Assembly (NCBI RefSeq): GCF_038396675.1 | Contig: NC_088934.1 | Coordinates: 40,999,501-41,063,500, forward strand | DNA from: Hydra vulgaris | Taxonomy: Eukaryota > Cnidaria > Hydrozoa > Anthoathecata > Hydridae | Direction of reading: 5' to 3' | DNA: 64,000 nucleotides | In this document: positions 23,672 through 49,285 of the stretch, one piece after another | Numbering within the stretch: position 1 is the stretch's first letter | Layout of the letters: each line of letters opens with the position of its first letter | The notes under the pieces: model-generated | What the model saw: the letters and a program-made list of their open reading frames with translations, nothing else | Told to the model about the DNA's origin: nothing | Databases searched by the model: none | Position numbers and translations under genes: made by a program

Positions 23672-23703
23672 CTATTAAAAATTACAAAAATATTACAGAA
23701 TTA

Positions 23704-23778
<75 letters not shown>

Positions 23779-24053: not shown

Positions 24054-24128
24054 GCGAGGTTTACTTAACGATATACATGCGAGGTTTACTTAACGATATA
24101 CATGCGAGGTTTACTTAACGATATACGT
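24054..24128. repeat. 25-bp tandem repeat, three copies
   Basis: Unit GCGAGGTTTACTTAACGATA followed by TACAT, starting at 24054, 24079 and 24104. The third copy diverges at its end. Confidence 0.92.
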
Positions 24129-24256
24129 GTGAGTAACGTTATACGTGTATATTAATATCTTATCAATACTATATAATGTTCTCAAAATAAAATAAAAGTT
24201 CATAATACGTTGAGAAAAATTAATTATGTAGCTATAGCATTTTTAAACACGCATCT

Positions 24257-24330
24257 ATAGTTAGATAAATTATATCATGATATAATTTATCTAACTATAT
24301 ATTATAATAAATGATATCATTTATTATAAT
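24257..24330. repeat. Two adjacent perfect palindromes
   Basis: 24257-24298 is a 42-bp perfect palindrome centred on ATCATGAT. 24301-24330 is a 30-bp perfect palindrome centred on GATATC. Only two bases separate them. Neither has a loop, so both could extrude as cruciforms. Confidence 0.93.
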
Positions 24331-25227
24331 TAATGCAACTTGCTATTATCCTAAAATATTATCTTGCGTTAATTCTAAATTTAGAAAGAAAATCTTGTTT
24401 TTAAATTTTATTTCATTCATTTATTTAATAAGAAAAAATGTTTAACGAAACATTAAAATAATAATAATAATAATAATAAAACCAAGAAGCAGAAAGAAAT
24501 AGAAAAAAAGAAGAAGTAATATTTTATGAAAACATTTCAACTATTTCATAGCATTTAATTTGAAGTATGCAAATAATTTTTTATTTATTGTTAAATTTAC
24601 GCGTTTAACATTTTTGCAAGCAAAAATGTGCACATTGGTGTTTCTATTAAATTTATATCTTATTCAATTTCATTATAATTATTTTATTATTAAAACTAAT
24701 TTAACAATAATTAATAACTTTTTCTTTAACATTGTTTATGACTTATGACTTGACTTTATTTTAACTTTGTTTAAAACTTATTACTTGATTTTATTTTAAC
24801 TTTGGTAAAATGTTTTATAAAGTACTTTTCTTATTATTCATTGTTCAGTGTCTGTTCAGTGTTTTATAAATGTGTACAACATGAAAAAGAAAGAAATGTT
24901 AAATTTAGTTTGTAATTATTTTTAAAGCAAGTTAAAATTGATTCTATCTTTCGAATAAAAGAAATTATTATGTATTCAAATGCAGTTTAACTAATTAAAA
25001 AGTATTTATTGTAATTTTAAAAAATTTATTTGAAATATTGTGGTTTTATATATATAAAAAAAAACAATCTTACAATGACAATTGGTCTAATGCATTTAAT
25101 GCAAAAAAAAACAAGTGTCGTTTAGTGTCAAAAATTAACAAACTGTATCAAATTCCCCAACCCTCCTTAAACGATTCGTTGAGGCGATTTATAAACACTT
25201 TTAATCCATTTTTTATAGAATTCATAA

Positions 25228-25938
25228 ATGGAGCTGAGATATGTGTTTACTAGCAGCCATATATTAAGATGCATTTATTCAAATGGATATTCAGTTCCTG
25301 TAGAAGTTGTTGACATGGTTGACGTTTTAGAAAATTTCAAGAGTAATCTTATAATGCAAGAAACGTCGTGTAAGCTTGCATTGGTAAACACAAATAATTG
25401 AATATTACGATCATTAAATTTGAAAATATGATGACCAAATATTTTTTGTTTATTTTATGATTTTAATTTTCAGAACCTTGGCATAAAGAAAAAGCCCTTT
25501 TTCAATAGCCCTGCAACTATAAACAGCTCATTGGTAAATCTATTTTCGACAAAAAAGTCAATGCTCCACGATCAAACAGACTTTTTTATTTCAAAAATAT
25601 CATCGACTATGCAGTTAAGATGGCATAAACAACCAATTGATGACAAAGAAGTTCTAGAAAAGATGGAGGCGGGAAATATTAGCCATTTAAACGATCCAAT
25701 AAAAATAGATGATAAGACACTAGACTTTATTTACATCAGCACTTTTTATAGATATGAAGAAGTAGAGTATTTTTTACGTCAACTCAAAAGCACAAAGTTA
25801 ACGTACGCTGTGGAAATAGATGTCGGAGTTGGAAATCAGATACTAATTACATATCAGCAACTTTTTGATTTTGATCATAGTTACATGATTTTAAAATGTT
25901 ATAAAAAAGAAGGACTGGCTTTTATAAAACCATTTTGA
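25228..25938 (+). CDS. Gene A, two-exon gene of an unrecognised family
   Basis: Exon 1 is 25228-25383 (52 codons), starting MELRYVFTSSHILRC. It contains VPVEVVDMVDVLENFKSNL and ends TTG|GTAAAC. The intron is 90 bp, phase 0, with acceptor TTTTCAG. Exon 2 is 25474-25938 (154 codons), starting NLGIKKKPF and ending FIKPF. The protein is about 206 residues. It has no signal peptide, membrane segment or zinc motif that I can see. The well-conserved block near its end is LDFIYISTF, EIDVGVGNQI, ITYQQLFDF and YMILKCY. Gene B on the opposite strand has the same structure. In EIDVGVGNQI the two genes differ at five third positions, all silent, so the protein has been selected. An upstream 5' exon is possible, since TTTTTATAG lies just before the start. 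The function is unknown. Confidence 0.75.
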
Positions 25939-26854
25939 GGTGTGACTTAATTGTTGTTGTATTTATACTTGTTTGTTTTAGTTTTTAACTATATTTAATA
26001 TATAAATCTTTAATACTAATTTGAAAGCTGTGTGAAGTATAGTGATGTAGAAATTTCTAAAAGAACCTTTAACACTTTAACGCCATGTTTAAAATTTAGA
26101 AACGTTGTATTTTAACAGCGCAGTTTTAATAATTTATAATAAATTTAACTTTAAATATAAGTTGTTATTGTTGCTAATTTTAGGAAAATAGAACCCAAAG
26201 AATTTTATTTTAAGTCCACCACTAAAAAATACAAACACACACGTTTAATGTAACACATTTAATATAAACCGTTAAACCGGGTTATTTAAATAGGGAAAAT
26301 AACTTTGAATAAATAAGTACGCTTTTTAATATTTATTTAATAATTTAATAACCTTTTAGGATTAAGAGGCTGTTGTGGGTTATGTGCTTGGACAAAACTA
26401 CCTTTTGTAGGTTGTGTAAGCTTTGTATGTTGTTTATGCATACGTTTTATACGTGTTGACTATATTAATATTACCTGAACACTGTTGACTATTTTAATAT
26501 TATATGACATGTTAATATTACGTGTTGACTATGTTATTATTACATGAGCACCCCGCATATTACTAACGTAGTTAATGCAACACGTAGTTGAGCTAAAATG
26601 TTTTACTTAAGACTTATTAATTTATTTCTAATTCATTACTTATTTTAAAACAATTTTAACACTATACACTATATAACTAACACATCAGTAATCAATTTCT
26701 TTTTGAAACAAGTTTTTAAGAGTGTTTTTAAAATATTTTTCGTTCCTATGCTTTATATGGAGGCTTTTACAAAGATTTTTCTAATTTATCTATTAATAAA
26801 CTGCAAGATGTGTTGAACTCAGTCAAAACTATAGTCGAGGCGCAGTAGCACTTT
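25939..26854. other. Gene A 3' flank, no further gene
   Basis: AT-rich. A degenerate repeat of GTTGACTATATTAATATTAC lies at about 26453-26548. An AATATATAAA stretch near 25995 could serve as a poor polyadenylation signal for gene A, but this is uncertain. Confidence 0.35.
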
Positions 26855-27040
26855 GTAGCCGTGGCGCAGCGGTTAGAGTTCTGGCTCAGTACAAAGATAT
26901 TTCACGTCTGCTCTAGCCCAATAAACGACATTGACATAAAGGGAGGCGTAAACTTCTTAGGTCAATGCGCTTCCGCGGTGCTCAGTGATAAGAACCTCTA
27001 GGTGCACTTTTCTTCAGAAAAAGAAAAAATAATAATTATC
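26855..27040 (+). mobile_element. tRNA-headed SINE, copy 1
   Basis: The head GTAGCCGTGGCGCAGCGGTT resembles a tRNA 5' half with an A box (TGGCGCAGCGG). The B box is degenerate. The body has GGAGGCGTAAACTTCTTAGG and CGCTTCCGCGGTGCTCAGTG, shared with the copy at 49286. It ends in an A-rich tail. A partial GAGGCGCAGTAGC just upstream suggests an older head duplication. Confidence 0.7.
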
Positions 27041-27842
27041 TAACGTATTCAAATTAAAACAAATCTAAAATACTTTTTTAAGTAATCTAAAACCATTGTT
27101 TTACATATTTTTAACATAATTTATGTAAGTATTCATTAAAAATAATTCTAAAATACGTCTTCATTATAAGTTCTTTTAAGTTATTGTTTTTGTAAGTTTA
27201 TAGTTTGTTTTTTGTTTTTAATAAAATTCTTAATATTTAATTTAAAGTTCAGTAAACCGAGCATTTAGAGCAAAAATTTTCGTATCAAATTGACGTTTAT
27301 ATCTTAGCAATCGAAACCTAATATGGGTTTTAACTCCACCTTATAACATAATAAGCTGCATTTATTTTATTTTTTTAAAAAGTTTCCAACATTTTTCTTT
27401 ACTTAATTTTCTTTAATTTCTAACTTTAATCTTTCAAGTTTCTTTCAATATTTGGATAACGATAGCAAACTTTTGACTCAATAGCCCTTCCGTTTCAATG
27501 ACATTAGGAAACTTTACAGTTTAGACTTCTAGTATTGATATACAACATTTGAATAAGTTTATTATGGCAATAAGCAAAAATTTTAAAGAACCTATTCCAC
27601 AGAAAAAAAATGTTTCTGAGGAACTTTTAAAAAGTTTTTTAAAATTTTCATCTTTTAATGGCATAATTAATTCTGCTTTTATGAGTTTGTTTATTTTTAC
27701 TTTTTATTGTTTTAATATATGATGCATTCCGCAATTTTACTCAGCGTAGTTAAGGAGAGATCCAAACCATTTGCATTTCTTAAAAAAAAAATATACGTTT
27801 TCAAACTTCAATTTTTTGTGTTTTCCGTTTTGTTTTCTACTA
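27041..27842. other. AT-rich stretch, no gene seen
   Basis: No coding or RNA gene can be supported. Confidence 0.4.
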
Positions 27843-28000
27843 GGGGTCATCCATAAATGATGTCAGTATTTTTTCTCAATTTCTCGAATCCCCCTCCCCC
27901 CTTTGTCAAACTTTTGGCCAACTCCCCGTTATATATGATGTTAGCTTTTGTGTACTCCCCCCCTAAAAACAATAAAAATGCTTAAAAACCATTGATTTTT
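27843..28000. repeat. C-rich transposon end (GGGGTCATCCATAAATGA)
   Basis: GGGGTCATCCATAAATGATG starts the segment, followed by C-rich blocks (CCCCCTCCCCCC, then CTCCCCCCCC). The same kind of end, GGGGTCGTCCATAAATTACG, occurs at 50608. Such ends border DNA transposons and MITEs in many invertebrates. It is probably the 3' end of the element whose gene lies at 28105-30810. A partial match (TGACATCATTTTGGCC with CCCCCCC) at 31409-31440 may be the other end. Confidence 0.6.
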
Positions 28001-28104
28001 TTTCTGACTAAATTATACATTTACATAATAGTAGATCTCATCAAATTATATTATATGATAGTCGATATCTCATTAAATAATCAACTAAGCAAATAGTGTT
28101 ATAT

Positions 28105-30810
28105 ATCTTTAATATAATCTTCCCATGGGTTGTTGAAGTGATCATCGATTGAAACAATAGGTAGTGAATGCTCTCCGCGCTCTAAAAGGATATCGTATTC
28201 TTGAGGTACAATCAAATTCGTTGCGTCAACTTCATTTTCATCTAACTATTCAGTAGTTTCCGAACTCTTCTGCAAGGCGATGATTGCCAAAAATTCTGTC
28301 TGACGCTTGGCAGCGATACGAACAGGTTGGTAACAACCCTTTTGATTAGAGGGAGTGTTATAGCAGAAGAATGGATAGAAGCGTGCTTTTTCAACATAGC
28401 TTGAGAGGCAAAGTAGATATTGCACTTTTTACAGATTCCATCAGCTAGGCTAGACTGAATTGATGGACAAAACGCATCATACAGCAAAATTGGAAATCCT
28501 TTGGCAGTACGAGGAAGAATACTTTCAATGTTTGTTGCGATGAGCATAAAGATGGATGATGGAAACAATTCTTTTGCTCCTTCTGAGACATCTACTGCTT
28601 TGAGCCCGCCTCTCGTTTGGTTGACAGGGACAGGAGGCGGAAGAAATCTTGCTCTCATTAGAGTAAAGTAAGAGCTTCTAATAGTCCGACAACAAGAACG
28701 ATTTTCACCTTTCACAATTTGAGTAAAATATTGACTTGTACGGAGATAATCGGCAATCCAACGTTGATCTTGTAATAAAAGGCTTCTTGACTCTAGCTCT
28801 GATTTGTCTAGATCAATATACTCTGCAATGGTTGGATAAACGTTAATTTGTAGAACCGACCAAATATCAGCCAAAGCCTGTCCAGCAAAACCAAAGTTCT
28901 GTTTTTACTGAATTTTCATCTATTGTCCTGCTTGATTTAAAAAGATATGTTGGTTATTATAGGTTAAAAATTATATTAATAATTATATTAATAACCTTGA
29001 GAATCAAGATGAGCTCCGTAATGTTCGTGCGGAAGAATCACCCCAGATAATTCTTTACTTAGAGGTGCCATTCGTTGCTTAGCTCTGTTGAATGCACTGC
29101 GGTCTGGAGCGTTCGTCATGATGAAAAGAGCGTCAAGGTTAATATTCTTCAAGAAATGGTGAATTCCGATTTCAATTACTTTCTGGTATCTGGGATTTTC
29201 GTCGGATCCTCCATCGACGCTAAACACAACGATAGGCTTAACCATATTAATTTGAGGATCTCTGATAATAGAGTCGAATTCTTTGATATCCAAGAGCCGC
29301 TGAAAGTATAATCCATGAGCAAAGGTCGAGGATGCGTGTTTTCCTGATCGAACAGCAATGTAGGTAGGTCCAGAATAAGTAACAGCATCTGTTTTTCCGA
29401 GACCATCTTTTTTGATCGTAATTTCAGCATATACAGATGGTATAAGCTTGTGTTTAGCAGCCACTACCCAGTCGTGGTCCGGGAGAGTTACCCGGTACTC
29501 CAAATGTATCAACAACGGCGCCTGTTTTTCCAATTGGCACTCTAGTCTTGTCGTCTTGGCTAATGAAACACAATTCATCTGGCCCTAAAATAGAACAAAC
29601 TTCTTCCACATATTTTATAGTTGAACTGCAAAAGAGTCCGTCAACATGTTTTAAATGAGATTCATTCTAAGGGCTGATCAATCTAACAGGGACTGTTTTG
29701 ACGTGCCTTTTGCCTTCTAATGTTCCGTAATGTTTTTCGGAAGTAGACGAGTATAGAGGGCGCTCTTGCTGATTGCAAATCCAATTTTGTTCATCTCGGA
29801 TGTCAATTCGTCGAAAGTTTTAATGCTCTAAATAATAAAGAAATATATTTGGATATAATTAACTTTTTTACAGAAAACAGGATTTATTTTGTAAATTATA
29901 TTCAAATCAAATCTTGAAACTAGTTGTTAACATTTCAAGGATTTTTACAATAGTGTAAGTACTAATTAAGAGTAAAATATTAATAAATACAATACTAACA
30001 AATACAATATTAACAAACATAGCTAAGCTATCATTATCCAAAGAACCTCTGACCGACGTCTTTCATCAGCGGAAGAACCACGGAGAGCAATACCCATAAT
30101 CGTCTTCAAAAGAAGAGGTTGATCTACTTCTAATGATGGTCGACCATGTTTCTTTCTGATTTTTAGTTTTTCTTTGACTTCTGGATGCTCCAAGCAGATT
30201 TCCTCCATTCTAGCTTTTTTCGGTTCTCTAGTTTTCTTCTGTTGAGCTTGATCAAACTTTTTTTTGGCCAGTTTTTTATATAGATGAGCTAGTTTCTTCT
30301 TTTTCTTTTTCAAATCATCCTCTTCAGCTTCAGCAATAAATCCACTTCTCTTTCTAGCCTTCAGTCCTACAACTTCACAATTTAAAGCTGCAATCTCAGA
30401 ATTCAGTCGATTTTGAGCAACTTTTGAGTTCTTGCATTTTTTTGATTTTTCGTGGTCAACAAACTCAAAGTTAATGTACTTTGTTGATCATCAATAACAA
30501 ATCGATCATTGGTGGGTTCAACAAACTGTGAGGAATTCTTGTCAAATTCAAGTGGAGTATACGTGGGGGCAGACTGTTTTGGATTATTGGCCCAAAATGA
30601 TAATTGCTTGCTCTTGAACTTGATTGTCTTTTCATTAAATAAATTGATTAAGTACATTACTCTTGATTCAAGATTCTTATGCACCAGTTTCTCTTCTTTT
30701 AATTAATTCCATATTTTATGGACTTCTTTCTGGATATTAGCCTTTTTTTTATCGGGATGACCATTTCCATACGAGACCATCAATAAGTTAAGTAATGCAG
30801 TTTTATCCAT
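28105..30810 (-). pseudogene. Large decayed DNA-transposon gene
   Basis: The gene reads from an ATG at 30810 (MDKTALLNLLMVSYGNGHPD) leftwards. Next come a Lys-rich region and GRPSLEVDQPLLLKTIMG. After a shift follow TFDELTSEMNKIGFAISKSA and LYTRLLPK, then EYRVTLPDHDWVVAAKHKLI, SGPTYIAVRSGKHASS, VVFSVDGGSDENPRYQKV (probable catalytic Asp) and TNAPDRSAFNRAKQRMAPLS. The last part has YPTIAEYIDL, a classic C2H2 finger (C-x2-C-x12-H-x3-H in CKKCNIYFASQAMLKKHASIH region) and, after a further shift, PQEYDILLERGEHSLPIVSI. This motif set is widely repeated in cnidarian and arthropod genomes. I cannot name its superfamily. Stops at about 30705, 30400, 29715 and 28258, plus frameshifts, make it non-functional. 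Confidence 0.78.
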
Positions 30811-31660
30811 TTTTTAACATTGGTTTATTAGTATTGTTTACATCACAATCAGAATAATGATTTTGCTAATTGTTAGCGCGAGCTTTTTAAAAGAGTTTCT
30901 TTAACCCACTAGGGAGAAATTAGCGCTTCGAATTTTCAATAGACTTTATGTGTTTGCATTGCATCACGTTTTACAATCAACTAGAGAGTAATCTTATTTG
31001 AAATAACGACAATATAATTTCAAAAAATGAAAAATTTATGAGTTTATTTTTATGAGTTTATTTTGAACCACATTTTATAGTCCGCTAGGGAGCGAATAAC
31101 GATTGTGAATTTTATATACAAAGAGTTAATATTTCTAACATAATTTGATTCGCAGTCAAACGGTAATGTATTAATAAAACAATAGTCATTTTTATTTTAC
31201 GTTAGTAGTTGTTATTAATTTAATGTCTCTGGGAAACTTATTATATTAATTTATAATATTTTATTATAAATAATTTAATAAAATATAATATCAAGTTCCC
31301 CGCATTTAATATTAATTTCCCCCACAAACAAAACATCATTTCTATACCATTTAGTAGATGTAAATACCGTTAAAATCTGCTCATTAAAACTAAAAAAATA
31401 ATTTAAATTGACATCATTTTGGCCTCAACACCCCCCCTCCCCATTGTTAATTAGTGTCAAACTTTCCAGCACATGGAGTTAGTTGCAGAAATTTTATATA
31501 AAACAATAATACTGCTTCTTCAAAGTTGTAAAATCAAATTGCACTCCTCTGAGATTAATTTGAGAACATAGGAAAAAAATTTTGTATTTGGAAGATTCAT
31601 TTTTTTTCATTTCATTATAAGTAAATAAAAGTCTGTAATTTAGATAATATTAAATGGCAT
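30811..31660. other. Flank of the decayed transposon gene
   Basis: No gene. Short GC-richer repeats (CCACTAGGGAG at 30906 and CCGCTAGGGAG at 31082) and a C-rich patch at 31428-31442 may belong to the 5' end of the element. Confidence 0.35.
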
Positions 31661-31670
31661 TTCTAAATTT

Positions 31671-31815
31671 AAATGGTAGCGGAGAAGCGCTTTAATTTTT
31701 TTTTGGTAGCGACCTTAGTCTGCTACCAAATTTTCTCAATGGAAGCGCTTTCGCAACTCCGCTACCAAATGGAGAGCCCGCATGTAGCCGAGTTGCAAAG
31801 TCGCGCTACTGCCCA
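31671..31815. repeat. GC-rich inverted-repeat patch (GGTAGCGGAG)
   Basis: ATGGTAGCGGAGAAGCGCTT near 31671 is inverted at about 31742-31771 (GAAGCGCTTTCGCAACTCCG then CTACCA). Another GTAGCGCGA-like inverted piece lies at about 31790-31812. The patch is far GC-richer than its flanks and looks like a small MITE. Possible flanking ATTTAAAT/CTTTAAAT repeats were not clear enough to call. Confidence 0.5.
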
Positions 31816-32198
31816 GCTTTAAATGTTGCTACAATTATAACAATCTTTTTTTTAATCTAGTTTGAAACTAAGAAATGCATAATTAAAATTTAAATTGCTT
31901 TAAACAATGCGAATTCAAAGGTTTTTAGAACAAGCCCAATATTGCTCTCGTATGTAAACGGATGTATAAACTATCTAATAATATTGAACTTTAAACATTA
32001 AATTTAAATGCTTTAAAGCAACTTGAAATAAACCACAAAACAAAGAAACAAAGACAAAAAATACAAACTAATTTAAAAAAAAAACCGTTATTCAAAAACA
32101 CGAGTTCAATAAAATGTTTTAATGACTTCTATAAAGCAAGTTCAAATTGTTTACAAATATATTTGATTAAAGGCGCAACTTAAGCTATGTGTGTGTGG

Positions 32199-32221
32199 GA
32201 GGGAGGGGGAGGGGGAAGGGG
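32199..32221 (+). other. G-quadruplex motif
   Basis: Five runs of three to five Gs separated by single or double As (GGGAGGGAGGGGGAGGGGG, then AAGGGG). This fits the G3+N1-7 rule on the + strand. It stands out in an AT-rich genome. Confidence 0.8.
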
Positions 32222-32684
32222 TTATAGCCTCGTCAAGCCCCCAGATATGTATGACCAAGCTTTATAAAATTAAAAAAATCTATTTCATTCAGCCATCTCT
32301 CCTTTTTTTGTATGTAACCTTTTTGGAATAATATTACCTGTAAACTTATTGATTTCTTTAATACCGGAATTTTGGCAGGTTTCAGTTCCAACATTCAATT
32401 CCAACGTTTTGATTTTTTCCAGTTTTAATTTTACTTAATCGTTGCGTTGCATCATACTTATTTTATTGCAACATTCTAAATTCTTTATTTTTTTTAAGAT
32501 CATCTTTATAATTGTATTGCATCATGCAAGATTCTTTTTTTTTAAATCATTCTTATACTTGTATTGCGTCATGTTAGATCTACTTGTTATTGTTATTTTG
32601 ATTTAAAAGATTGACTCCAACTCAACTTTTTGGAATTACTGACAGATGCTTGAGGTTTAGTTAAACATTTAAAGAAATGTATTT

Positions 32685-32777
32685 AAGGAGACTAGGTCTA
32701 GTGAAGCCTAGTTTCACTAGACCTAGTCTCCTTGGCTCCTCCGAGCCATAATATCTAAAGTATTTTGGCTCGGAGGA
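32685..32777. repeat. Pair of consecutive hairpins
   Basis: AAGGAGACTAGGTCTAGTGA (32685 onward) pairs with its complement ending at 32733 (21-bp stem, short loop). Immediately after, TCCTCCGAGCCA (32737-32748) pairs with TGGCTCGGAGGA (32766-32777). Confidence 0.88.
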
Positions 32778-32942
32778 AGAGAAAACGTGTCTTACTGCGT
32801 ATACCCATAAAATATGACATAAATTATAACTATTTGATCAACCTGAGTCAATGAGTTAAACAAAATCAATATTTAACGTGGCATCAAAATAAAATTGAAC
32901 TCAATTGGTTTGAAAACGTTTAAAAACCTAGAGAAACATGAT

Positions 32943-33012
32943 ATTGTAACATAGCATATCCCTCTGTAAACAAATTTAAATTTGTTTTCAAAGGGATACG
33001 CTATGTTACAAT
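32943..33012. repeat. 70-bp imperfect palindrome
   Basis: ATTGTAACATAGCATATCCC pairs with GGGATACGCTATGTTACAAT. The palindrome is centred on AAATTTAAATTT, with about four mismatches. It may be a tiny foldback element. Confidence 0.85.
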
Positions 33013-33429
33013 ACTATGTTTCATAAAAATCTTGGAACTGTTAATATGGGACTAATGTTTCCATTATATTTTATTACAATGTAATGAATATTATTACAGG
33101 CTAAAAGTAAACTTTCAAAGACAGATTCTGAATATTTTTGCAAATTTCTAGATATTTTTAAAAATGGGTAATGTTACCGGTTTTTGCATTTAATCTGCTC
33201 GTTTTTTGTACGAATCTAGTGGTTTTTTGCATTTAATCTGGAGGGTTTTTTTTATTTTAACAAATACTTTTGATTTCATTGCTTTGCCTAATTTAACTTG
33301 CTTATATACAATTTAAGCCCTTTTTTGCTTTAATTTTTTAAAACTCTAAAATGAATAACGCACAAAGATGATGCACAGAAATTAATTTTAAAGTAAAAAA
33401 TTAGATCATTTATCTTGTAACTATTGAAT

Positions 33430-34330
33430 GGAAAAGTGTGAAATAAGTATTGGAACTCTTGCATAGAAGTAAGGCTTCGATACAACGCCTGTTCCATCAA
33501 TATATATCAACAAGTAATAACAACCTGGTGTTAGAAGTGGTTTTCGACAGTCAGGTTGAACTGAGGAAATAAGAGATAAACAGCATAAGTTAATTGGAGC
33601 TAAAAAAATAATAATCTATAGGAGACAAAGGTAGAATTGGGAGTTTATGTCAGTTTCACTAAATTATGGTGATGATTAAATAAATTAAATTTTACATATA
33701 AAATTTTAATTTCCATTATTGAAAGACGAAATAAAAATACTGGAGAGATAAAAGAAGAAAAAAAAACATATGTTTCATGGTGTTTAAACATGGCATTGCA
33801 ACAACATTACAGAAACATCATTTACATCAATGAAAGTCCGTTCAATCTTCATATGTTAAGAAGCCACGGATACAGTCTGCAAGAAACAACCCCAAATCAA
33901 AGTGTATTGTCATCAAGTGGCCGTAACATAACCATGATATTAACTTTAAATTTTTTAAACACAGTCCACAGTGAAGCAATAATTGGTGTTGGGGTGACAG
34001 CAGGTATCTTTAAGAGTTTTTTAAATACACTTAAAAGTATTTTGATGGAGAAAAAAAAGTTTACCTTGGTAATGGACAAAGCAACTTTCATCATTCATTA
34101 TCATATTTTTATGGTATTTATCTCTATGATGTTCGTTTTTTACCCTGATACTCGCCTTTTCTAATTCCTTGTAAAGAACCATTCTTAAAAACTAGGAAAA
34201 CTATAAGAGGACAAATAGCTCTTATTGGAAATAACGATTTATTAGAACGGATGAGGAACAGTTGTGAACATATTACTTTTGAGCTTGTATGTTCAATCAA
34301 AGTATTTTTAATTAGAGGTTAATTGCAAAA
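33430..34330 (+). pseudogene. Tc1/mariner-type transposase relic
   Basis: The catalytic half reads IIYINESPFNLHMLRSHGYS, then SGRNITMILTLNFLN, LVMDKATFIIHYH and, after a shift, SPFLIPCKEPFLKTRK and LLERMRNSCEHI. These are the DDE blocks of the IS630/Tc1/mariner superfamily: [D]E in the first, VMD in the second, PxxxPCxE in the third. The first acidic residue is Asn here (YINE), so this copy could not cut DNA even if open. Weak N-terminal similarity (ASIQRLFHQYISTSNNN and VFDSQVEL) precedes it from about 33430. No terminal repeats were found. Confidence 0.75.
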
Positions 34331-34585
34331 GAATAACACGTAAAAATCAGACAAATTAGTCTCAAATGGGCCCCCTAAATTCAATAGGTCTCCTCCCGAT
34401 TGGGGGATTTAGGGTAGCTTAGCCACAGCTCTGATTTATAGTATTAAAATATTAAAATTACTAAGCAAGTAAGTCGGAAAGTAGAAAAGGATATTTTTCT
34501 AAAGTGTAGAAAATGTCAAAAAGAGTATTTATTTAAAAACAAACATTGGTTCAACTGTTACCAGTTAAATCAATGAAGAATTTGT

Positions 34586-34690
34586 AGACCTTGGATTAAG
34601 TTTAAACAAAAGTTTTATAAAGACCTTGGATTAAGTTTAAACATAAATTTTATAAAGACCTTGGATTAAGTTTAAACATAAATTTTCATT
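34586..34690. repeat. 35-bp tandem repeat, three copies
   Basis: Unit AGACCTTGGATTAAGTTTAA then ACATAAATTTTATAA, starting at 34586, 34621 and 34656. Confidence 0.93.
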
Positions 34691-34774
34691 TAACCAGAAT
34701 AATTGGTAGCTAAAATGTTTGACTTAAAAATAACTTAAAATAGTAAGGCTACCAAAGAAACTGTAAAAAACTAC

Positions 34775-34835
34775 CTGTTGTCAATGTTGTATAATGTTGT
34801 CAATGTTGTCAACGTTGTACAATGTTGTATAATGT
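34775..34835. repeat. TTGTCAATG/TTGTATAATG tandem cluster
   Basis: Six or so alternating 9- to 11-bp units of TGTTGTCAATG and TGTTGTATAATG. Confidence 0.75.
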
Positions 34836-35275
34836 TTTTAAGTTAAAAAGATGGAAAAAATAAAAATAGAAAACAATTAGATTTTTGTTGTATAATTGAG
34901 CAAGAAATGATAATTATCTTCTTGTATAATAAACAAAAAGATAAAACGGCTCCAAGCCTTTCATTGTAGCTCAAATATATACTTTTTAAAAACATACTCA
35001 AACGTATACTTTCTAAATTTAACTATAAAGCAACTGAAAAAATTCTATAAAAAAGGTTCGCTCAAAATTTTGTCAAGTAATTTTTTCTTGCACTTGTCAG
35101 GGCTAGGATTTTCCTGGTACTTGTGATAAAGCAAGAAAACATTTGTTTAGATAAGTATTTATTCTCATTCAGTTTGTAGACTATAGGTTAAAAATCTTAG
35201 AAAGTAGGCAAAGAGAAGTAGAAAAAGGATTAACATGGTATTGAAAAAGGTAGTAATGATATTGAGTACATGGAT

Positions 35276-35780
35276 ATCGCTACAGAATCACAATCACCAC
35301 AGGTGTTTTCTCAAAGCAAACTAAACAACTTGGTCAGAGATTTAAATCTCTTAAAGTTAAGTTGTTAGGCTCGAGATTATCTGAAAAAGAACTTGCTGAT
35401 TCAAGGAAAAGAAAGAATTACTATCACTGTTTCCAGAAGAAGATAACTTCGTATTCTGTAGTGATATTTGTTCTCTGAATCAGAAAATGAGACACTGCTA
35501 TAACTCAATTGACCTTTTATTGAAAGCCCCAAAAGTTAAAAACTTTTCCTGCTATACAATGACATCAAATTAGCTTGTATTCCAATTGGATATTCAATAG
35601 TACCGAAGGAAAGTTATGACATCATAAAGATGTTTTTAGAGAAGATTTATTGTAAAGAGCATAATTTGATCATCTGTTGTGATATCAAAGCTGACAACAG
35701 CTGATTTTTAAAGAGAGATTAAACATGCTCAAAAATCAAAAAAGCAGTTTTTTTCCTGCTTTAATGCATCTAAGTCTGTA
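35276..35780 (+). pseudogene. Relic of an unnamed transposon-associated protein
   Basis: FSQSKLNNLVRDLNLLKVK and LLGSRLSEKELAD open the fragment. After several shifts it gives IKLACIPIGYSIVPKESYD and FLEKIYCKEHNLIICCDIK. This motif order (a conserved lead part, then an I-P-I-G...C-D-I-K segment) recurs in repeated proteins of cnidarian and insect genomes. The usual continuation with a CxxC pair is missing. There are at least three frameshifts and a TGA at about 35701. Its superfamily and role are unknown. Confidence 0.55.
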
Positions 35781-36299
35781 AATTAGAACTTACTGGTGCT
35801 TGTCTAACATATAGCTTTGTACAAAGTTTGTTTTTCTATCTTTTTTTTTTATGTTTTAAGGGAGGGGGGCAATATTCTTGATTTTTCCCCTCAATCTACG
35901 GATCTGCCTCTGCAATGTATACCATAAACTAAGATCTTGTCTATATTTAAAAATACACTTTTTTATCCTTTTATTTATTGTAAAAACGAGACGTCCAATG
36001 AAAAAAGTACTGCTGTTATTGACATCAGTATTATTGAATTATATATAAAAAAAAACTCAAATTGTAATCAGCAAAATAAAATTAATTTGCAGAGTAGCGT
36101 AATCCAATTATAATAATACTTATTTCTTTATCTCAATCTTTAAGCTGCTTAAACTTAAAACTTAAAAGTAAATTTTAAATAAGCACTATCTATAACAGTA
36201 TTTAAAAAAAAAAAAAAATTGAAAGGTACTTATGTTACTATTGTAACGGTTTAATGGATAAAAGTATGAGTTCCAAGGACATTTGGATTACTACTCTTT
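35781..36299. other. AT-rich stretch, no gene seen
   Basis: A G-rich/C-rich patch (GGGAGGGGGGCAATATTC, 35859-35876, followed by CCCCTCAATCTACGG) resembles a repeat edge. Nothing coding. Confidence 0.35.
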
Positions 36300-37430
36300 T
36301 TCAAGATGTAATTGAGAACTTGAAAGCTGTAATTAAGGAACGTAAGATGTAATTTAGAACATGAAAGTTATAAATAAGAAATCATAAGATGCAATTGAGA
36401 ACATAGTAGTTGTAATTAAGAAAAGTTTATAATATAGGTTTACAGAACAAAGTTTTTGTACTTTTAATTTTTTCGTCTAATTTAACTTGTAATTAAAGAT
36501 TGGTTTCTAATTTAGCCAGGGTGGCCGTATGGGTTGGTTTTCAATAAATAATAATATACTATCAATAAAATAAAAAAGTGATGAAAAAGGCATTGCGGTT
36601 TCTGCGGTAACTGGAAAAATCCTATCGGGTGTTTTTTTTGTTTGTTTGTGAAAATTATATTTGAGAAATCAGATGAATAATAAATAAAACACAAATAACT
36701 TATTTACAAAAAAATATAAAAATTTAAATCGAATTAAAAAATGTAATTAAAAACTATTGTAATATTCAGTTAAACACCAACTTGGGCATCTTATATATTT
36801 AAAATCGTTGCGTAAAGCTTCGTAGTATGTTGAGAAAAATCACCTTCTATTATTATACTAATTGCCGCAGAACCAATTCTTTCCAAAGCTGCATTCGTTG
36901 TTCGACAATGTCAGCACCAAATACAAATGAAATGCGTTTTTAACGTTACTTTTTATTTTAGACTAGATTATTTCCACCGGGTTCTACAATGGATTGTGGG
37001 GTTCTAAACGTTACAACTGAGCGGGAGAATTTTTAAACCCCTTTTCCAAACGAGCGTGACATGCAGCATAATCTGTTATAATGACCAAATCCTCTAAAAG
37101 GCTCCTGGATGTAACTGACTGGTGAAACATAACTAACATCTACTTGTTACAAGATTCTGCATTAAATGATGAGTTTCCATTATGACAGGATGAATTAAAG
37201 GCTAACTTATATTTGACCCCTAAATTTTGTGCCAGAGTCATCCAATCGTCATTTTGCTCAATACATTCAGCAATTCTTCTTCTGTCATTCGGTGAAGGTT
37301 AAACATAATGTTTTCTTTTAACTCAATTACATTTTACAACTTTTTAATTACATGTTGTGTTTCTCAATTACGTATTGCAATTTCTTAATTACAAATTCCA
37401 TGTTCTTAATTACATCTTGAAAAGGTGAAG
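36300..37430 (-). mobile_element. DNA element with 21-bp sub-repeats in inverted ends
   Basis: The outer ends are CTTTTTCAAGATGTAATTGA (about 36298) and, inverted, CCTTTTCAAGATGTAATTAA (about 37425). Each end is built from about five to six units of roughly 21 bp around TGTAATTAAGAACATGAAAG: 36310-36435 on the left and 37315-37425 on the right. The middle holds a minus-strand relic near 37215-37300 (RRRIAECIEQNDDWMTLAQN then LGVKYKLAFNS), which reads like the N-terminal helix-turn-helix of a Tc1/mariner-type transposase. The rest is full of stops. Target duplications could not be decided. Confidence 0.65.
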
Positions 37431-37435
37431 AGATG

Positions 37436-37500
37436 CCACGAATATACGGTGACTATTCGGTATTCGGCCGATTCAGCGACTTTTTTTAACTATTCGGAAT
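37436..37500. repeat. ATTCGGTATTCGGCCGA repeat end
   Basis: ACTATTCGGTATTCGGCCGA and CTATTCGGAATTCGGTATTC are short clustered inverted and direct repeats typical of MITE ends. No partner end was located. Confidence 0.45.
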
Positions 37501-37855
37501 TCGGTATTCATCAATAGATCTTATTTTTTATTAATATAAAATCTATTGGTGGTAAGTTATGAATAAAAATTTTTATCGTTTGATGATAGCAAATGATTGC
37601 ATTTTTCATATGTCAATAAATGTGTGCTGTAACATAACGCAATCACAAATGAAAAAAACTAGGGCTAAAACTTTGACAAGAAAAACTGCAAAGAAATTTA
37701 AGTGCAAGTGTCCTACATCGTAAAAACATTAAAAAATAAAACAAGCATTTGTGACATATAGAACAAAGAAATTCGCACTGATAAGTATAAAGAGCAGTTT
37801 TAACTGTAAGGTGGATGAATGTGTTGTAAGTTTAGTAACCGTGAATTTGCCATTG

Positions 37856-38264
37856 ATGACGAGCATAGGCGTGTCCAGACCTTACTCACAGGTCGTGCAC
37901 AACAGTGGCATATTAGAGGAATTAGGTTTCTACTCCCCCTGGTTATACTGTAGGTAATAATTAGTATTAGTTAGGCTATACCTGGATAACTAAATGATAA
38001 AAAAGGCTTTCTATATCTAAGAAAGTCTTTTTTTCACATCCATTTTTATAATTATAGTTCTTTTCAGTGATTTTTTCGCGCTTTTGACTCACTAAAAGGT
38101 CAAAAAAAAGGAAGAGTCACTAACAGCACTACTACTAACACTATTAAGTAGCGTATTGTTATATAGAGATTGCTATAGCAATTTATAATGTAAGTTTGAT
38201 CAAACTTTGCCGGTCATGCCTGTGCATGACAAGCAAGAGCCGTAGACACGCCTATGATGACGAG
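37856..38264. mobile_element. hAT-type MITE with ATGACGAG duplication
   Basis: The element runs 37864-38256 (393 bp) with ends CATAGGCGTGTCCAGAC and, inverted, CATAGGCGTGTCTAC. It is flanked by the 8-bp direct repeat ATGACGAG (37856-37863 and 38257-38264). An 8-bp duplication with CAxxGGCGTG-like ends fits hAT. It has no transposase; the short frame crossing its left end is not a gene. Confidence 0.88.
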
Positions 38265-38907
38265 TTGTATTTTACATAAACATAAAAATTTTGGAAACTG
38301 AAAATGAAGATCAACTGTGAAAAAAAAATTTTTTATTGCTTAAGGAAAGTTGATAAAAATGTTGAACAACTAATGTGCAAACTTGTATACAGAAAAATTG
38401 ATGCAGTATGTCGTAATGGCAAGAAAGTATTTTTTCACTCCCGAGAGTAAAAAATAAACATATTGCTTATTATTCTGTACAAATTTTTTTTTCATTAAAT
38501 TTTTCTTTGTACTTTTGCTACTTTTCTTTATTTTATGCTGAATTTTTGTCACAAAGGGTTACTAAAATTTCGAATACCACTTTATCATAACTTAAACGTA
38601 ATTTAAATAGTTATGAAACGAGGCAATGTAAATTCTACGGTTTTGTATAAGGAGACACTCAGCTTTTTTTTTAATTTCAATCTGTAGATATAATTAACAA
38701 TAACAATAAAGCTCTTTTTCTACGCGTAAATTTTTTATACAGAGATTATATAACAATCTGATATTTATACAACTTTAAACACGCCCGTACCCAGCTTTCA
38801 GACTTAATGCCTAAAAGTTATCTATAATAAACATCAAATATATCTGGGTGAGAGCCTGTTAAACATTTATAAATTAAATGAATTAAATTTTTAAAAGTCA
38901 AGAAACT
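38265..38907. other. 3' flank of gene B
   Basis: AT-rich, no other gene. A polyadenylation signal for gene B could not be pinned down. Confidence 0.35.
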
Positions 38908-41900
38908 CTAAAACGGTTTGATTAAAACAAAACTGTCCGTTTTAAAGCATTTTAAAATCATATATTCACAATCAAAGTTTAAAAGTTGCTGGTAAGATAT
39001 TGAAATTTGATTACCAACCCCAACATCTATTTCAAGGGAGAATGTTTTTTTTGTGTTCTTGATTCTTCTTAAAAAATTCTCCGCTTTGTCAAATCTATCA
39101 AAAGTACTAATGTAAACAAAGTCTAATCGTTTATCGTCTTCACTCCGATTACTTGAATTTTTTGAATAATTAAGAAACTTTTCGTCTTCAGTCTCCAAAT
39201 CTTCTGGACTTTCTTCGTTGGTGACAGGATATAATGTTCGACGTCTTAATTTCATGGCTGGCGACATTTGCAAAATTACAGAGTTGGCTTGTTCAAAGTA
39301 TACTCGGTGTTTGTTCAAAGTATGTACTGGGTGAAAAATTTGTTTTCTTGACTCTAAAGTTTCGCAACTTGGAGATAAAATAAGATTTTTTAAAATGTGA
39401 AACGGTTTTCTTTTCAAACCAGGATCCTAAAAATACATCATGTACATTCATATTTATGGTGCAAAGTTAGAAAGCTGGACTATTTAATTTAGTCAACTAA
39501 TAACTTGTTTGAAAGTTTAAAAATGTAGAAACATGAATTAACTTTAATAATTTAATATCAAACTTTATCTTATACTTTTAAAAACTTGTTACAAATAAAT
39601 GTGATAAAACACTTTTTATTTAAAATGTTGCATAGTTTTTCATTTATTGTTATTTTTTTGATTATTTTTATTTAATGTGCATAATCTGGTAATAACTAGG
39701 GGTGCGCCAATGTATCGGCATTGATATTGACCTGCCGATGCATCGGCATCGGTTTTGGTAATCATCAGCCGATACCATTTGTTTTGAAAACACCAGTTTT
39801 TTTTTTAGTTTATTTCTATTTGCATGTGAAAATATAGTTATTCCGTAAACAAAAATGCATGCATAAGCCTAAATTATTATGTAGACATACCTGCAACCAC
39901 TAAATCTTTAGCTATTTTGAACAGATTTTTATCAGAGGCTTCCGACAATTTTAGTGTTTTCCAAACTATACAAAGAGACAATAAATGTAAACGTAATGAA
40001 AATTGTAAAAAAGTATATTACGCCACATTCTTTCTTTTGATATTTTTGTTTGGCAAAGTTTACAAATTATTTTTTTATCTCAAAAATAGATTCCTTTACC
40101 TAAAACATCCAAAACGATTATATTTATTTTGTTTCTAAAATGGTATTTTGTTTCTAAAAAGGTATTTTGTTTCCAAATGTTTTTGAGGATACTAATATAC
40201 AATAATTAACCACGTAACTATAAGAAATATGGAAATTTAACCACGTTTAAAAATGATTGCAAGATTAAGCTTTTTTGTTTCAGCAACAGAAATACATTTT
40301 GAAACTGCTCATCGTCATTCAAATTTTCTACATTGACGCAAGCAGTTTGTTTTTCGTTAGGTTATAAGTAATTACGTTTTAAAAAACAAGATAATTCGAA
40401 TAAAAATAAAATACATAACCAAATAGTCATAAAACCTTTAAATTTTCACATACAAAATCGTGAAAAGAAATCAACAAAGAACAGCTTGTCGCTTTGTTGT
40501 TCAAACATTAGGTAAATTAAATGGACTATTACAAGCATAAATTAATTTATAATAATAATAACAAACTATGTAATTAATTATTTTTTTAATTTGGAAAGTT
40601 CAGTAAATCAGAAAGTTGGAAATCAGTGTAATGTCTCAGTGTAAACTCTCACGTGATTCGAAAATAAAGAAAGCAGCTATTACTGTATAATATGATATAT
40701 AAAAACTTCATATATTTTTAGAAAAAATCATTTATTTAATTTTGTTTTAAATAAAATAACTTTTGTCTAATTTCTGTGTCGTAAGATATTTTAGTTAATT
40801 AAGACCAATTGTGTTTTAAAATTTAAAAGTAGTTTTACAAGCATAGAAAAAGCATAAAAAGTTATTTGTAATGTGATGTAAAAAACGTGACGTAAAAAAC
40901 CATGTTTTTGTAAGTAGATAGTAAATCTCGTGCAAATAATAGTGTTATTCTTAAAAAGATGAATGTTAACTTTAAAGCATAAGGAAAAGTCAAAAATTTT
41001 AAAAGGTTGTACTTTAATATTCCCTGCATATTAAAAAAGCTATTCTGAAAATAATTGACGAAAAAAAAGTGCAAGTTAATCTCTTTAATTTTTGAAGAAA
41101 AATCGTTTCAAAACGTTTTTTTTTTAATTTATGTTATGTAATAATTATATAACAACAACGAAAATAAATAAAACACTTTTTTAAATCATTTCACAAACAA
41201 TTAATAGATAAGCTCGCACATTTTTGTTTTTGCACAAAGTCCGCAAATTTGAGGAGGTTACAAAATTTAGATCATAATTTCCAAACATTTTCAATAAAAG
41301 TAAAGTTTTCCAAACATCTTTAATGAAAATAAACATAAGGTTGGTTTAAAACTGTAAAAAGTTGAACTCTCACCTTTGGTTAAGGGCGTGATACACAGAC
41401 ATCTGATTAGGAATGTGCTACACTTATATTTGGTAAAAGTCATGCTTTACATTTAGAGCTTTTGTTATTCCTAGGGTCCAATGATTGTAAACTTTCTCAA
41501 AGTCATCTTCATTTGTCATTTATGAAGATGCCTAAATTTGCAATGTGATTAATGCTCATAAGTTGTTGCAATAACAATTAACTTTTGTTCAGGCTGTGGA
41601 TTTTAAACGTTGTTAGGCAATTATTTTGGATCACTTTTCGTTTATAATGCTCGTGAATTTATAACTTTGTTAGGCAATTATTTTAACTAAACGATTACTT
41701 CGCGGTTCAAAATTAAACTAGAAAAACAACTTGACATTCACAAAACCATTGTTTTGGATTATTTTTGGTGTATAATGCCCATTCATTATAAACATTATAA
41801 GGCATTTACTTTAATCAAACGATTACTTTTCAGTTCAAAGTTAAGCTAAAAAAGCAACCCATTGTTTAATAAAATTTTATTGTTCAAAACGTCTTTGAAC

Positions 41901-44900
41901 TTAAATTTTAGAATAAATTTTACTTCTCATTAGTTTTTTACGCAGCTTTGTCCACTTTATAAAGTCCAGGACTTATGCAATAAAAATTACAGATTCGCAA
42001 CAGATCTTTTGATTTTTATCAGTTTTTAGTCTTTTATCAAGTTTTTTATCAGCTTTTTTTTGTTTTGTTTCGATTTATGTTGACTTTTGGTTCTCTCTTT
42101 ATTAATTTCTCGTATTTTCCGTTTCTTAGCTTAGCGTTAATTATTTTCAGTTTTTAAAAAATCTTTTCACCACTTATTTACTGCAGAAAAATTATTTTTC
42201 TGTTATATTCATTGTCTATAACATTTATGCTCCAACTCTAACAGAAGGGTGAAAAATAAGGTTTCTTGTTTCCAGCAAGATTTGGTAGTATGATGGCAAG
42301 AGTGTACACCGATGAAGTATTACAAACCAATTCTAACTAAATTTACAAACCGCGAATGAGTTTCTAACTCATTCGCGGTTTGTAAATTTAGTTAGAACCT
42401 GATTATTTGGAGATTGAAGTTTGTTGGTTCACAGAACATTGAATATTGATGCTGGTCCATCAATAAAGGTCGATTAAGGTTGGGGCAGTCTGTTACCCTA
42501 AAAATATTAACATACATTTTACGTATTTTATTTGAAAACATATAATTTGTATCGCGAAACATTTAATTTGTCATACCTTTTAAATTGAAAATATAAAATG
42601 TATATTGAATATAGTTCCATATCATTCGATAATCATTAAAACGATAGGTAATTTTAAAGGAAATAATGGGGAGTAATTTCCCCCCCCCCCTTCCCTTTCT
42701 AAAAAAGAATTTTTATATTTACCTTAGTTTTTAAGGATTCGCCCCACCCCCATCATTTTATAGAATCTCCCCTAATTAATGCTGTTTATAATATTGAGCA
42801 ACTTCTGAATAAACACATAAAGTATACGATATTAGAATTAATACCTGGTTAAAATAAAAGTTGTCATCTTTCTATTTTTCTACTTAAAAACGGAAACTTT
42901 TAATACCGGATTGATCCAAAAACTTTACTTCATGATTGTAAAAGCGCTAAAATGACCTGTAAACACTAACAGCGACAAATGATGCAGACAAATGACACTG
43001 AAAGCTGGCACCAACACTGACACCGACAACTGGATGAAGTTTGTTTTAAATGAGTGCCAGCAAAGTTGGCAAATTAAATTATTTTTATTATTATTATTTT
43101 ATTTTTTTTTGCATCAGTAAAATTAATTTTTAAATACAACTCATAATTGTTTAAACTAAAAGAATCGAATTCTACTTTGAAAATCTTCTATTGACTTGTT
43201 GTTCTATTGACTTGTTGTTCTATTGACTTGTTCTTCTATTGACTTGTTCTTCTATTGACTTGTTCTTCTATTGACTTGTTCTTCTATTGACTTGTTGTTT
43301 TACGTCAGAAAGACCTTAAGCGTTAGGAATACTTTTTGAATAAATGGATCTATCAAAAAGCGTCATTGAATTGTGTCTGTAAATATCATAGCTGACAAAT
43401 ATGCAACAAAAATGTGACACATTCAGAATGTTGTATATGGGTTAGTTATTATAACATATTAAAAACTTCTACTTATCTATGATTTATTGTATTGAAATAA
43501 TCAAGAATATTACATGAAGTTGTTGTTTCAGTACCTATACTTCTCATTATTTTAGCACTTTGACCTCGTATTTTTTAAAACATGAATAAAAGTTACACCC
43601 TTTGAAATTGATTTGTTGTTTAAAATTATAATTAATTCTGAATTTACTATGATTTCTCACTATATTTTACCAAAAATTTATTTTAAAAACATCCAAACGT
43701 AATCTATTGTATATTTTTATTCATTAAACTAATTTTAATGAATCAAATTGTTTATCAAATTACTTTTAATAAGACATTCTGCAAAAAAAAAATTACTTTT
43801 TTTTGGTTATTAAGGCATTTTAAAAAAACCTTAAGGTTTTGTTACAGAGCACTCTTTCAATGAGCGTTTAACTAGTAGGTTCATGCTCCTATACCTATGT
43901 TTTATATATGGCCAGAGCAAGCTTCAAATCATGTACTCTTGATTCTGAAGCTCTAACAACTGCGCCACGGCTGCCTAAAATCTTTTACTTTATTTGAAAC
44001 AATAACTAACAAGAACTCAAAACATATTGGCTTCTGCCTAAAACAGACATTTTGGAGAGCGACAGTTAGTTTGGTACCTGGTTATCTGGAATCAATCTCT
44101 CTTAAGTATACTGTAGAGTGGAGAACGTTGACCAAATCTTTTTTTCTTTAATGTTTTTATTATAGGCATTTTGTTTTTTATTTCTTTTTTTTTTATACCT
44201 AAAAGTTTGGGAAAATCTAAAATTATTATAACTAATAATTATATATAAAATTGTTATATAATAACTGGTAAAATCATTAAAAGTTTATGTTCAGTTTTCA
44301 TTTCATAACATTTTTGTTAGAGCATATCACCTGGGCCAAAATTTTCCAAAGATAATTTTTTATTCTATTATTAATTTTTTTAACTATGCTTATGTTTGTT
44401 GAAACTTAAATATCAAATATTTAAGCATGTTGATTGAATATTTGTTATTTAAAGTTATTGAAACTTGTATATTTTATGTTAAGGTTTGTTGAAACTTAAA
44501 TATTTTATATTTAGGTTTGTTGAAAGTTAAATATTTTATATTTAGATTTGTTGGAACAAACCACATAGTACAAAACTTAAAAAATGCATTACTTATTTAA
44601 TAGGCCATGTTTATTTTCAAAATATTTCGAACATAAAATATTACAAATCCGAAGTAAAAATTTTTATTTGTTGTTTAGGATAGGTTTTAACATATACCCA
44701 ATATGTATTAAAATTAGTATTCACAAAAGGGTTGCATGTAGCATTGCAATGTGCAACCCTTAACGTTTGAACAACCTGCTTTAAAAAAAGCTTTTTGCTA
44801 AAATTATCAATTGATAATATGTAATATTATATAGTAAAATAATTCTTAAACTATAACCATTAAACTTAATACTCATATTTGCAGAACTGTTAAACACCAG

Positions 44901-46462
44901 TAAAATCATCACCACCACCACCACCACCACCACCACCGCCACCAGTGAACCGCCATCGGTTATAAATACTTCAAACAAATTGTTCAAAATATATTTCGGC
45001 TAATTAAAAAGACTAAACTTCCCCCGAAAGTAATATTTTTTGGTGAAGCCATACTCTAAAAATCAGTTTTTGATCTTCATTTTCGATCTGATTTGAACGA
45101 TGACAACAATAAAAAATATTATTTGCAGTTATCGTAAGCACTCTAAAATTCAATAGCAGCATTCAAATATAACCTTACATGTGCTTACACTGACGCATAT
45201 ACTTTATAATTTTACTTTTTAAATTAGTTTGTATATTATATCAGCAACTTTATTATGGTTAAGTTTAATTGCTTTTTTTCCAATGTACGTTTGTCATTTA
45301 TAAGAAGTTCCTAATTTATAAATAATTATTTTATAATTATAGACAGAAAAAGTAATTTATTAACGCGTAAAACACAAAAGGAAATCATACACATAAAACA
45401 CGTAACGATATTATAAACACGTAAAACACATAACGTAATTGAGTTTATTTAGATTTAGATAAGGAAAATATGTGTGTATATCTTTATACAGTAAAGTTTT
45501 TTAAGAAGACATGTACTTTAGATTTTATTATTTTCCAGCAACAATTACAAGAAACTAAACTAATCTATTAATAAGTCAACAGTTAAATCAAAATTTGAAT
45601 ACTTTAGTCAAGTATACTAATATAACAACCTATTAATAAGAAGTTTGAAGTAAAACTTTAAACCAAATACTATACAAAAGTAGAATTAAAAAATAGCTTG
45701 AAAAATGATAATTATTAATAGTTATTATTTCGAGGAAGTAGGGAAGTCAATTACCTCTTTTATTTTTTTTGCTGCATGGAAAAAATTGTTTTTCAAATAG
45801 GAAACACATATTGTGAGATGAAAAAATAAAGATCTTTGAAAATTGTATTTATAAAGCAATTTATTCAGCAAATTAAAAAAAATTTATTATTTGAAAATAA
45901 ATAATAGTTTTTATTAAACTAAATTATAAATGTTTCTTTTCAATAATATAAAAAGTTAGTAGAGAATATTAAACAACATTCTCACCTCGTCCAATTTTAT
46001 AATATGTTTAGGCATATATATCATTATGAAAAAATTGGTCTTTAAAACAATAAAAATCTTAAATTACCTCACGGTAAATATGAAATATATATGAAACTGA
46101 CAAAAAAATAATTCTTCATAAGGCAAGTAAAAAAGTATATACAAACAAATAAATAAAGTATATCATATTGATAATAGAGACAGTAAGTTAAAATAATAAC
46201 GACATAGTACAAAAGCTGTACAATTTTAACAAAACAGCTTATTTATCTAGTTTGAACTAATTAGACAAAAAATAAGTACAAAAATTAATATTTTTACCGA
46301 AACAGCTCGACTTCTCAATGATCCTTGAGTTTTAAGGCAACTTTTTAGCTTTTCCAAAATATCAACTAAGTCAACTACCTCGATTGGAATTGGATGTCCG
46401 TTTGTATATCTACATCTTAAAATGAGATCGCTTGAGAATACGTACTTTAACTCAACTTCCAT
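38908..46462 (-). CDS. Gene B, paralog of gene A with a long intron
   Basis: Exon 1 is 46462-46298 (55 codons): MEVELKYVFSSDLILRC, then PIPIEVVDLVDILEKLKS, ending TCG|GTAAAA. Exon 2 is 39426-38908 (172 codons), beginning DPGLKRKPF after acceptor ATTTTTAG and ending LIKPF. The product is about 227 residues. Aligned with gene A, the phase-0 intron falls at the same place. The shared blocks are ELKYVF/ELRYVF, VEVVDxVDxLE, LDFVYISTF, EIDVGVGNQI, YQQLLNFD and YMILKCF. The middle is acidic and poorly conserved (ESPEDLETEDEK). The intron of about 6.9 kb is filled with repeats; extra small exons there cannot be excluded. No known domain is recognised. Confidence 0.68.
39708..39790. repeat. GGGGTGCGCCAATGTATCGGC repeat edge in gene B intron
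   Basis: GGGGTGCGCCAATGTATCGG with several CGATGCATCG/ATCGGC palindromic pieces resembles a widespread MITE/hAT end. No partner end was found. Confidence 0.5.
39791..41600. other. Gene B intron, AT-rich filler
   Basis: No exon or RNA gene is recognised. Short frames here have no features. Confidence 0.35.
41620..41865. repeat. Diverged tandem duplication (~125 bp)
   Basis: The first unit runs TTATTTTGGATCACTTTTCG ... AAACGATTACTTCGCGG. The second runs TTGTTTTGGATTATTTTTGG ... AAACGATTACTTTTCAG. Two copies lie head to tail, roughly 80 percent alike by eye. Confidence 0.65.
42331..42397. repeat. Perfect 32-bp hairpin
   Basis: TTCTAACTAAATTTACAAAC and the following 12 bases (42331-42362) pair perfectly with 42366-42397, with a three-base loop. 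It lies inside the gene B intron. The perfect stem and short loop are unusual. Confidence 0.92.
43186..43297. repeat. 16-bp minisatellite, seven copies
   Basis: Unit TTCTATTGACTTGTTS repeated seven times, with G/C variation at the last base. Confidence 0.95.
43890..43978 (-). mobile_element. tRNA-like SINE head
   Basis: On the minus strand it reads TAGGCAGCCGTGGCGCAGTT, GTTAGAGCTTCAGAATCAAG and then a weak B-box region (ATTTGAAGC). It matches the head of the SINE at 26855 but lacks the shared body. It could also be a decayed tRNA. Confidence 0.55.
44390..44560. repeat. GTTTGTTGAAACTTAAATAT imperfect tandem repeat
   Basis: Four to five units of about 30-36 bp centred on TTTGTTGAAACTTAAATATT. 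Confidence 0.7.
44727..44761. repeat. Hairpin AAGGGTTGCA
   Basis: AAGGGTTGCA pairs with TGCAACCCTT across a 15-base loop. Confidence 0.75.
44909..44944. repeat. (CAC)n trinucleotide run
   Basis: About eleven CAC units within the gene B intron. The Val-rich frame across it on the minus strand is an artefact. Confidence 0.93.

Positions 46463-49285
<2,823 letters not shown>

Follow-up and report, generated by a model that had tools for sequence, protein, structure and literature searches.

Taxonomically restricted genes have been described in Hydra, and among them the Hym301 family, reported to be restricted to this genus, offers a described system with which the two genes presented here can be compared (PMC2586386). 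Hym301 proteins are 87-106 aa long, carry a putative signal peptide and are encoded by four exons in H. magnipapillata (PMC2586386). Like Hym301, the genes that we call A and B would belong to a family of few members, whose short proteins have no recognized domain and differ strongly in part of their sequence. They differ from Hym301 in that their predicted products of 206 (A) and 227 aa (B) are encoded by two exons.

The window, meaning the whole 64-kb stretch of DNA that was analyzed, corresponds to positions 40,999,501-41,063,500 of contig 15 in a genome of 911,502,276 bases and 15 contigs, the one animal sequence that the searches for relatives covered. The coordinates of its features are collected in Table 1, together with those of the RAD9 gene located on another contig.

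Structure of the gene pair

Gene A reads from left to right and gene B from right to left, so that their coding ends face each other at a distance of about 13 kb. Both introns are in phase 0 and interrupt the genes at an equivalent alignment boundary, ahead of which B is one residue longer. The G+C content of the exons is 0.34 and 0.31 in gene A, vs 0.18 in its intron, and 0.36 and 0.32 in gene B, vs 0.26 in its intron. The preliminary description had proposed a facing pair of two-exon genes with a phase-0 intron at a matching alignment position, and both the coordinates and the splice sites agree with this; the shared blocks that it listed, EIDVGVGNQI, YQQL and YMILKC, can likewise be read in A and B from the codons. 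The predicted spliced products are 42% identical over 225 columns (BLASTP; E 5e-57 in this single comparison), and the sequence supports A and B as two real paralogous genes.

Table 1. Features of the window, and the RAD9 frame found elsewhere in the genome (positions refer to the window unless a contig is named; a slash marks an exon/intron boundary)
Feature	Coordinates	Strand	Remarks
Gene A exon 1 (52 codons), N-terminal module	25228..25383	+	Matched genome-wide only by itself and gene B exon 1 (E up to 10)
Gene A intron, 90 bp, phase 0, GT-AG	25384..25473	+	Boundaries TTG/GTAAAC ... TTTTCAG/AAC
Gene A exon 2, stop codon included	25474..25938	+	
Gene A conserved C-terminal core, 78 codons	25702..25935	+	62% identical to gene B core; model pLDDT 56.7
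Gene B exon 1, 55 codons	46298..46462	-	
Gene B intron, 6871 bp, phase 0, GT-AG	39427..46297	-	Boundaries TCG/GTAAAA ... TTTTTAG/GAT
Gene B exon 2, stop codon included	38908..39426	-	
Gene B conserved C-terminal core, 78 codons	38911..39144	-	Recovers A and C in the genome
Reverse-transcriptase frame, retroelement part	9857-10369	-	RVT_1, E 1.3e-18
DDE_3 transposase fragment between A and B	33676-34161	+	E 1.6e-06, just under cut-off
mRNA cap guanine-N7 methyltransferase exon	60814-61125	+	PF03291, E 3.1e-25
RAD9, single open frame, 448 codons	L046 982-2328, contig 9, 18.935 Mb	-	PF04139, E 4.6e-82

Ten frames of the window were scanned, among which the exon of an mRNA cap guanine-N7 methyltransferase was the sole ordinary cellular gene recognized. 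An inverted pair of sequences (1-791 and 1493-2283, 99.9% identical) holds a common frame, located at 45-815 on the forward and at 1334-2239 on the reverse strand, to which Pfam returned nothing at E up to 0.01. No RNA families or tRNAs (the latter sought with ARAGORN) were reported across the window; a sequence near position 26858 looks tRNA-like by eye and is perhaps a SINE. A scan for bacterial-type promoters and terminators, a method not apt for this DNA, found promoter-like sites no more commonly than in shuffled sequences. A search with PF14865 (macin) returned no match, which is not to be read as absence of the family.

Selection on both genes

The differences between A and B within the shared blocks are silent in five of five cases in EIDVGVGNQI, in two of two in YISTF and in YMILKC, and in the single case found in YQQL; for EIDVGVGNQI and YISTF this had been noticed before and was borne out codon by codon. 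Over the 206 aligned codons, the differences are distributed 77/56/107 among the three codon positions (chi-square p 0.0003), and the Nei-Gojobori estimates are 0.696 for pS, 0.313 for pN, 1.98 for dS and 0.405 for dN. The resulting pN/pS ratio of 0.45 (95% bootstrap range 0.36-0.57) is unevenly spread along the proteins, being lowest in the last 72 codons (0.29), 0.30 in exon 1 and highest in the middle (0.70). The dN/dS comparison of A with B that had been recommended gives a value of about 0.2, well below 1 (0.205 by Nei-Gojobori, and 0.14 over the last 72 codons), which is only approximate because a dS of 1.98 is close to saturation.

The fate of an unselected reading frame was simulated with the coding sequence of gene A, using substitutions only, without indels, and 2000 runs per level. 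At 0.1 substitutions per site, 36 of the 2000 simulated frames were still open; at each of 0.25, 0.5 and 1.0 substitutions per site, none of the 2000 was, and it would be very unlikely for neutral drift to have left both frames open. The pN/pS ratio and the loss of the frame in the neutral model therefore make it very likely that A and B were maintained for most of the time since their duplication. Together with the silent excess, these results uphold the purifying selection suggested in the preliminary description: as judged from the codons, purifying selection has preserved both genes through most of the period that followed an old duplication. Since a comparison of paralogues reports the mean constraint over their entire history from the duplication onward, the constraint could also be the record of a past in which one or both genes were still alive, followed by recent death or loss of expression. 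We regard this as highly improbable, because both frames and their GT-AG splice sites are intact and because the frame of A outlasts even 0.1 neutral substitutions per site in just the 36 runs mentioned above.

Copy number and mobile elements

Genomic matches were evaluated among the best candidates, which alone were scored by the search program. Within this scope, the close matches of gene A exon 2 (E up to 0.001) in the 911.5 Mb lie at A and B alone, and when gene B exon 1, the B core and the A core served as queries (E up to 10), the only close matches were again A and B. The many scattered genomic copies that had been named as the mark of a transposon protein were thus not seen among the candidates scored. 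At the DNA level, the region of A (20001-30000) and that of B (36001-50000) share three matches at E up to 1e-3, namely one of 230 bp within exon 2, one of 100 bp within exon 1 and a 55-bp stretch outside both genes, so that similarity follows the exons with this last match as the one exception. The 55-bp stretch (26943-26996 vs 49383-49434) is 80% alike between its two copies.

The window does contain pieces of mobile elements, the RVT_1 and DDE_3 frames of Table 1, which would fit with A and B being themselves proteins of a transposon or of an integrated virus. This origin is nevertheless extremely unlikely, given that close copies are limited to A and B among the best candidates scored, that the flanks common to both reduce to the 55-bp stretch beyond the exons, and that both genes are predicted to be spliced. 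A viral source is also disfavored by the searches of viral and prokaryotic contigs, in which no relative was found (a result that says little on other animals), and by the weakness of the PHROGs matches, both to families of unknown function and not taken as real (E 0.018 for B and 0.2 for A).

Candidate relatives in the genome

An open frame on contig 12, here called C, was picked by genome-wide searches at E-values that are not significant in themselves (1.54 with the B core as query, 8.2 with the A core and 0.83 with the candidate D described below). It can be read as two predicted exons (L018:860-1090 and 1192-1719) separated by a GT-AG, phase-0 intron with a weak predicted donor, AAG/GTTTTA, and it terminates in step with A and B (with a single gap, YMVLKISRTHCMVMRAF in C vs YMILKCFKTDSFVLIKPF in B). 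On the C core, the A/B profile reaches a score of 44.2, vs 19.8 for the best shuffle, so that none of 300 shuffles reaches the score; nor does any of 5000 in either of the pairwise core comparisons, A-C and B-C. In exon 1 of C little similarity was seen (8 of 300 shuffles reach the score), and in its middle part none (338 and 581 of 1000). From the likeness of the cores, C is probably a distant third member of the A/B family.

A search with C led to the candidate D, located on contig 14 (E 0.83), which returns C at E 0.83. Shuffles reach the pairwise score in 0 of 2000 cases for C-D, 83 of 2000 for A-D and 27 of 2000 for B-D, whose best alignment is out of register, and a profile of A, B and C is matched on D by none of 300 shuffles, vs 9 of 300 for a profile of A and B. 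D is consequently tied to A and B only weakly; its upstream exons were not found, and it may be a fourth family member. Neither C nor D has a Pfam match above cut-off or a significant PDB sequence match. Two below-cut-off matches of the unspliced first frame of C, PF00216 (E 0.0026), which extends into the predicted intron, and PF16808 (E 0.1), were not accepted. Six other genome matches (L038, L039, L050, L052, L053 and L054) were examined and put down to chance; we take L052 to resemble an exon of CCDC47.

With C a probable and D a possible further member, the "two-gene family" of the preliminary description is probably too small a count. A and B have the block EIDVGVGNQI in identical form, whereas neither C nor D conserves it, and it therefore marks the A/B pair.

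Searches for a named family

Neither Pfam nor NCBIfam returned a family for full-length A and B at E up to 10. Four pieces of the proteins yielded a single below-cut-off Pfam match, that of PF05907 to the B core (E 0.081), which is weak and was not accepted as real. A PDB sequence search with B alone returned no match, and the profile searches of the PDB gave E 0.27 at best (PrimPol) and 0.32 and above for the others, none of which was accepted as real. The predicted products of A and B are thus without significant match in Pfam, NCBIfam, PHROGs or PDB, and for these four libraries the earlier statement that the protein cannot be placed in any family holds. AlphaFold models are not reliable for gene A with pieces of B (pLDDT 33.5) or for the core, modeled as strand, helix, strand, strand, short helix, strand; Foldseek matched the core model to 70 PDB entries at E up to 10, none of them at or below 0.001, and nothing is concluded from these matches because the pLDDT of this low-confidence model is 57.

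That A and B are highly diverged members of a widespread, named animal family missed by these searches is an unlikely alternative, against which the lack of any Pfam match for the full-length proteins speaks. In the form in which it was pursued, the core would be the beta-alpha-beta-beta-beta unit with which a sliding clamp of the RAD9/HUS1/RAD1/PCNA type ends, and A and B would be clamp fragments binding partners of the DNA-damage machinery. The order of strands and helices in the core and near the end of D does resemble, by eye, that of the last unit of a clamp, and it is in this possible order, seen by eye only, that the A/B core may be likened to RAD9-type clamps (PF04139). However, the core alignment against a small clamp profile is equaled by 17 of 300 shuffles, full-length A/B against Hydra RAD9 by 149 of 200, and the last 110-130 residues of A-D by 146 of 200 (local) and 148 of 200 (global). 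With a RAD9 segment, the shuffles of 2000 that reach the score number 1441 for A, 1919 for B, 835 for C and 1079 for D. A Rad9 profile recovers the real RAD9, which lies apart from A and B, on contig 9, and none of A-D at E up to 10. No significant sequence similarity of A and B to RAD9-type clamps was seen in what is a low-power test, and such a negative means little, as RAD9 itself, compared with HUS1, RAD1 and PCNA, is equaled by 12, 4 and 3 of 100 shuffles, respectively. Since accepted clamp paralogues barely pass the shuffle test, the clamp idea is unsupported rather than excluded.

PrimPol was raised because residues 45-100 of the human protein, in its N-terminal module, were what the core matched best in the profile searches of the PDB (E 0.27), and dropped when 56 of 200 shuffles reached the score of the A/B core against Hydra and human PrimPol. 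We also take A and B to differ from PrimPol by stopping short of the position of the catalytic motif. A likely Hydra PrimPol gene lies on contig 15 near 20.717 Mb (L013, 9060-9999 onward), where a human PrimPol segment matches the start and a UL52-type zinc-binding end follows about 10 kb on (PF03121, E 1.0e-10).

CIDE-N (PF02017) was raised by eye from a resemblance in a series of residues toward the C terminus, and dropped in a control that used 5 of 10 fetched loci, where 125 of 200 shuffles (A, B and C) and 76 of 200 (A and B) reached the score. The genome itself has 53 CIDE-N matches at E up to 10 (e.g., L028, L030, L032, L034, L035), 21 of them over the cut-off, with two nearly full domains (L026 and L027). 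Many of the matches are half-domains (about profile positions 29-76) that lie in short open frames and are spread over most contigs, two of them with a piece covering positions 3-30 immediately upstream. The pattern suggests that the domain has expanded or that a mobile element carries it.

Proposed nature of the family and its product

The reading that we favor, and hold to be rather probable as a whole, is that A and B are old, selected duplicates in a small, unnamed and diverging family with a soluble binding or scaffold product. A and B would be the closest pair of this family, C its probable third and D its possible fourth member, so that the family is probably somewhat larger than two genes and fast-changing. 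Most likely, the product is soluble and resides inside the cell: the maximum mean hydropathy over 19 residues is 0.88 in A, 1.03 in B and 1.24 in C, which, by the usual hydropathy threshold for a membrane span, suggests that no stretch of the three predicted proteins is hydrophobic enough to cross a membrane. In this layout, exon 1 would encode a short module at the N terminus, which is followed by a middle that varies and, near the stop codon, by a conserved alpha/beta module. The simplest reading is that the protein binds partners or serves as a scaffold, its C-terminal module forming the contact surface, because start and end are conserved and the middle is loose; it is drawn from this anatomy alone, and no enzyme family was named by the library searches of A and B. 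EIDVGVGNQI may be an element special to the A/B pair.

A bolder proposal, which we consider improbable as it stands, would make A-D part of a fast-diverging family, four proteins strong or larger and found in Hydra or close relatives only, with an undescribed small alpha/beta fold, in which A and B are a specialized pair sharing an invariant EIDVGVGNQI surface.

Of the constrained and unplaced two-gene family proposed at the outset, the paralogy, the constraint and the absence of library matches have stood, whereas the number of genes probably has not. Unplaced genes are common in individual lineages, and such findings are real and not rare; the A/B family does not on its own settle an open question. 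If confirmed, it would add a selected gene family of unknown fold to an animal that serves as a laboratory model, and C and D, if confirmed as members, would provide part of the spread of sequences that structure prediction requires.
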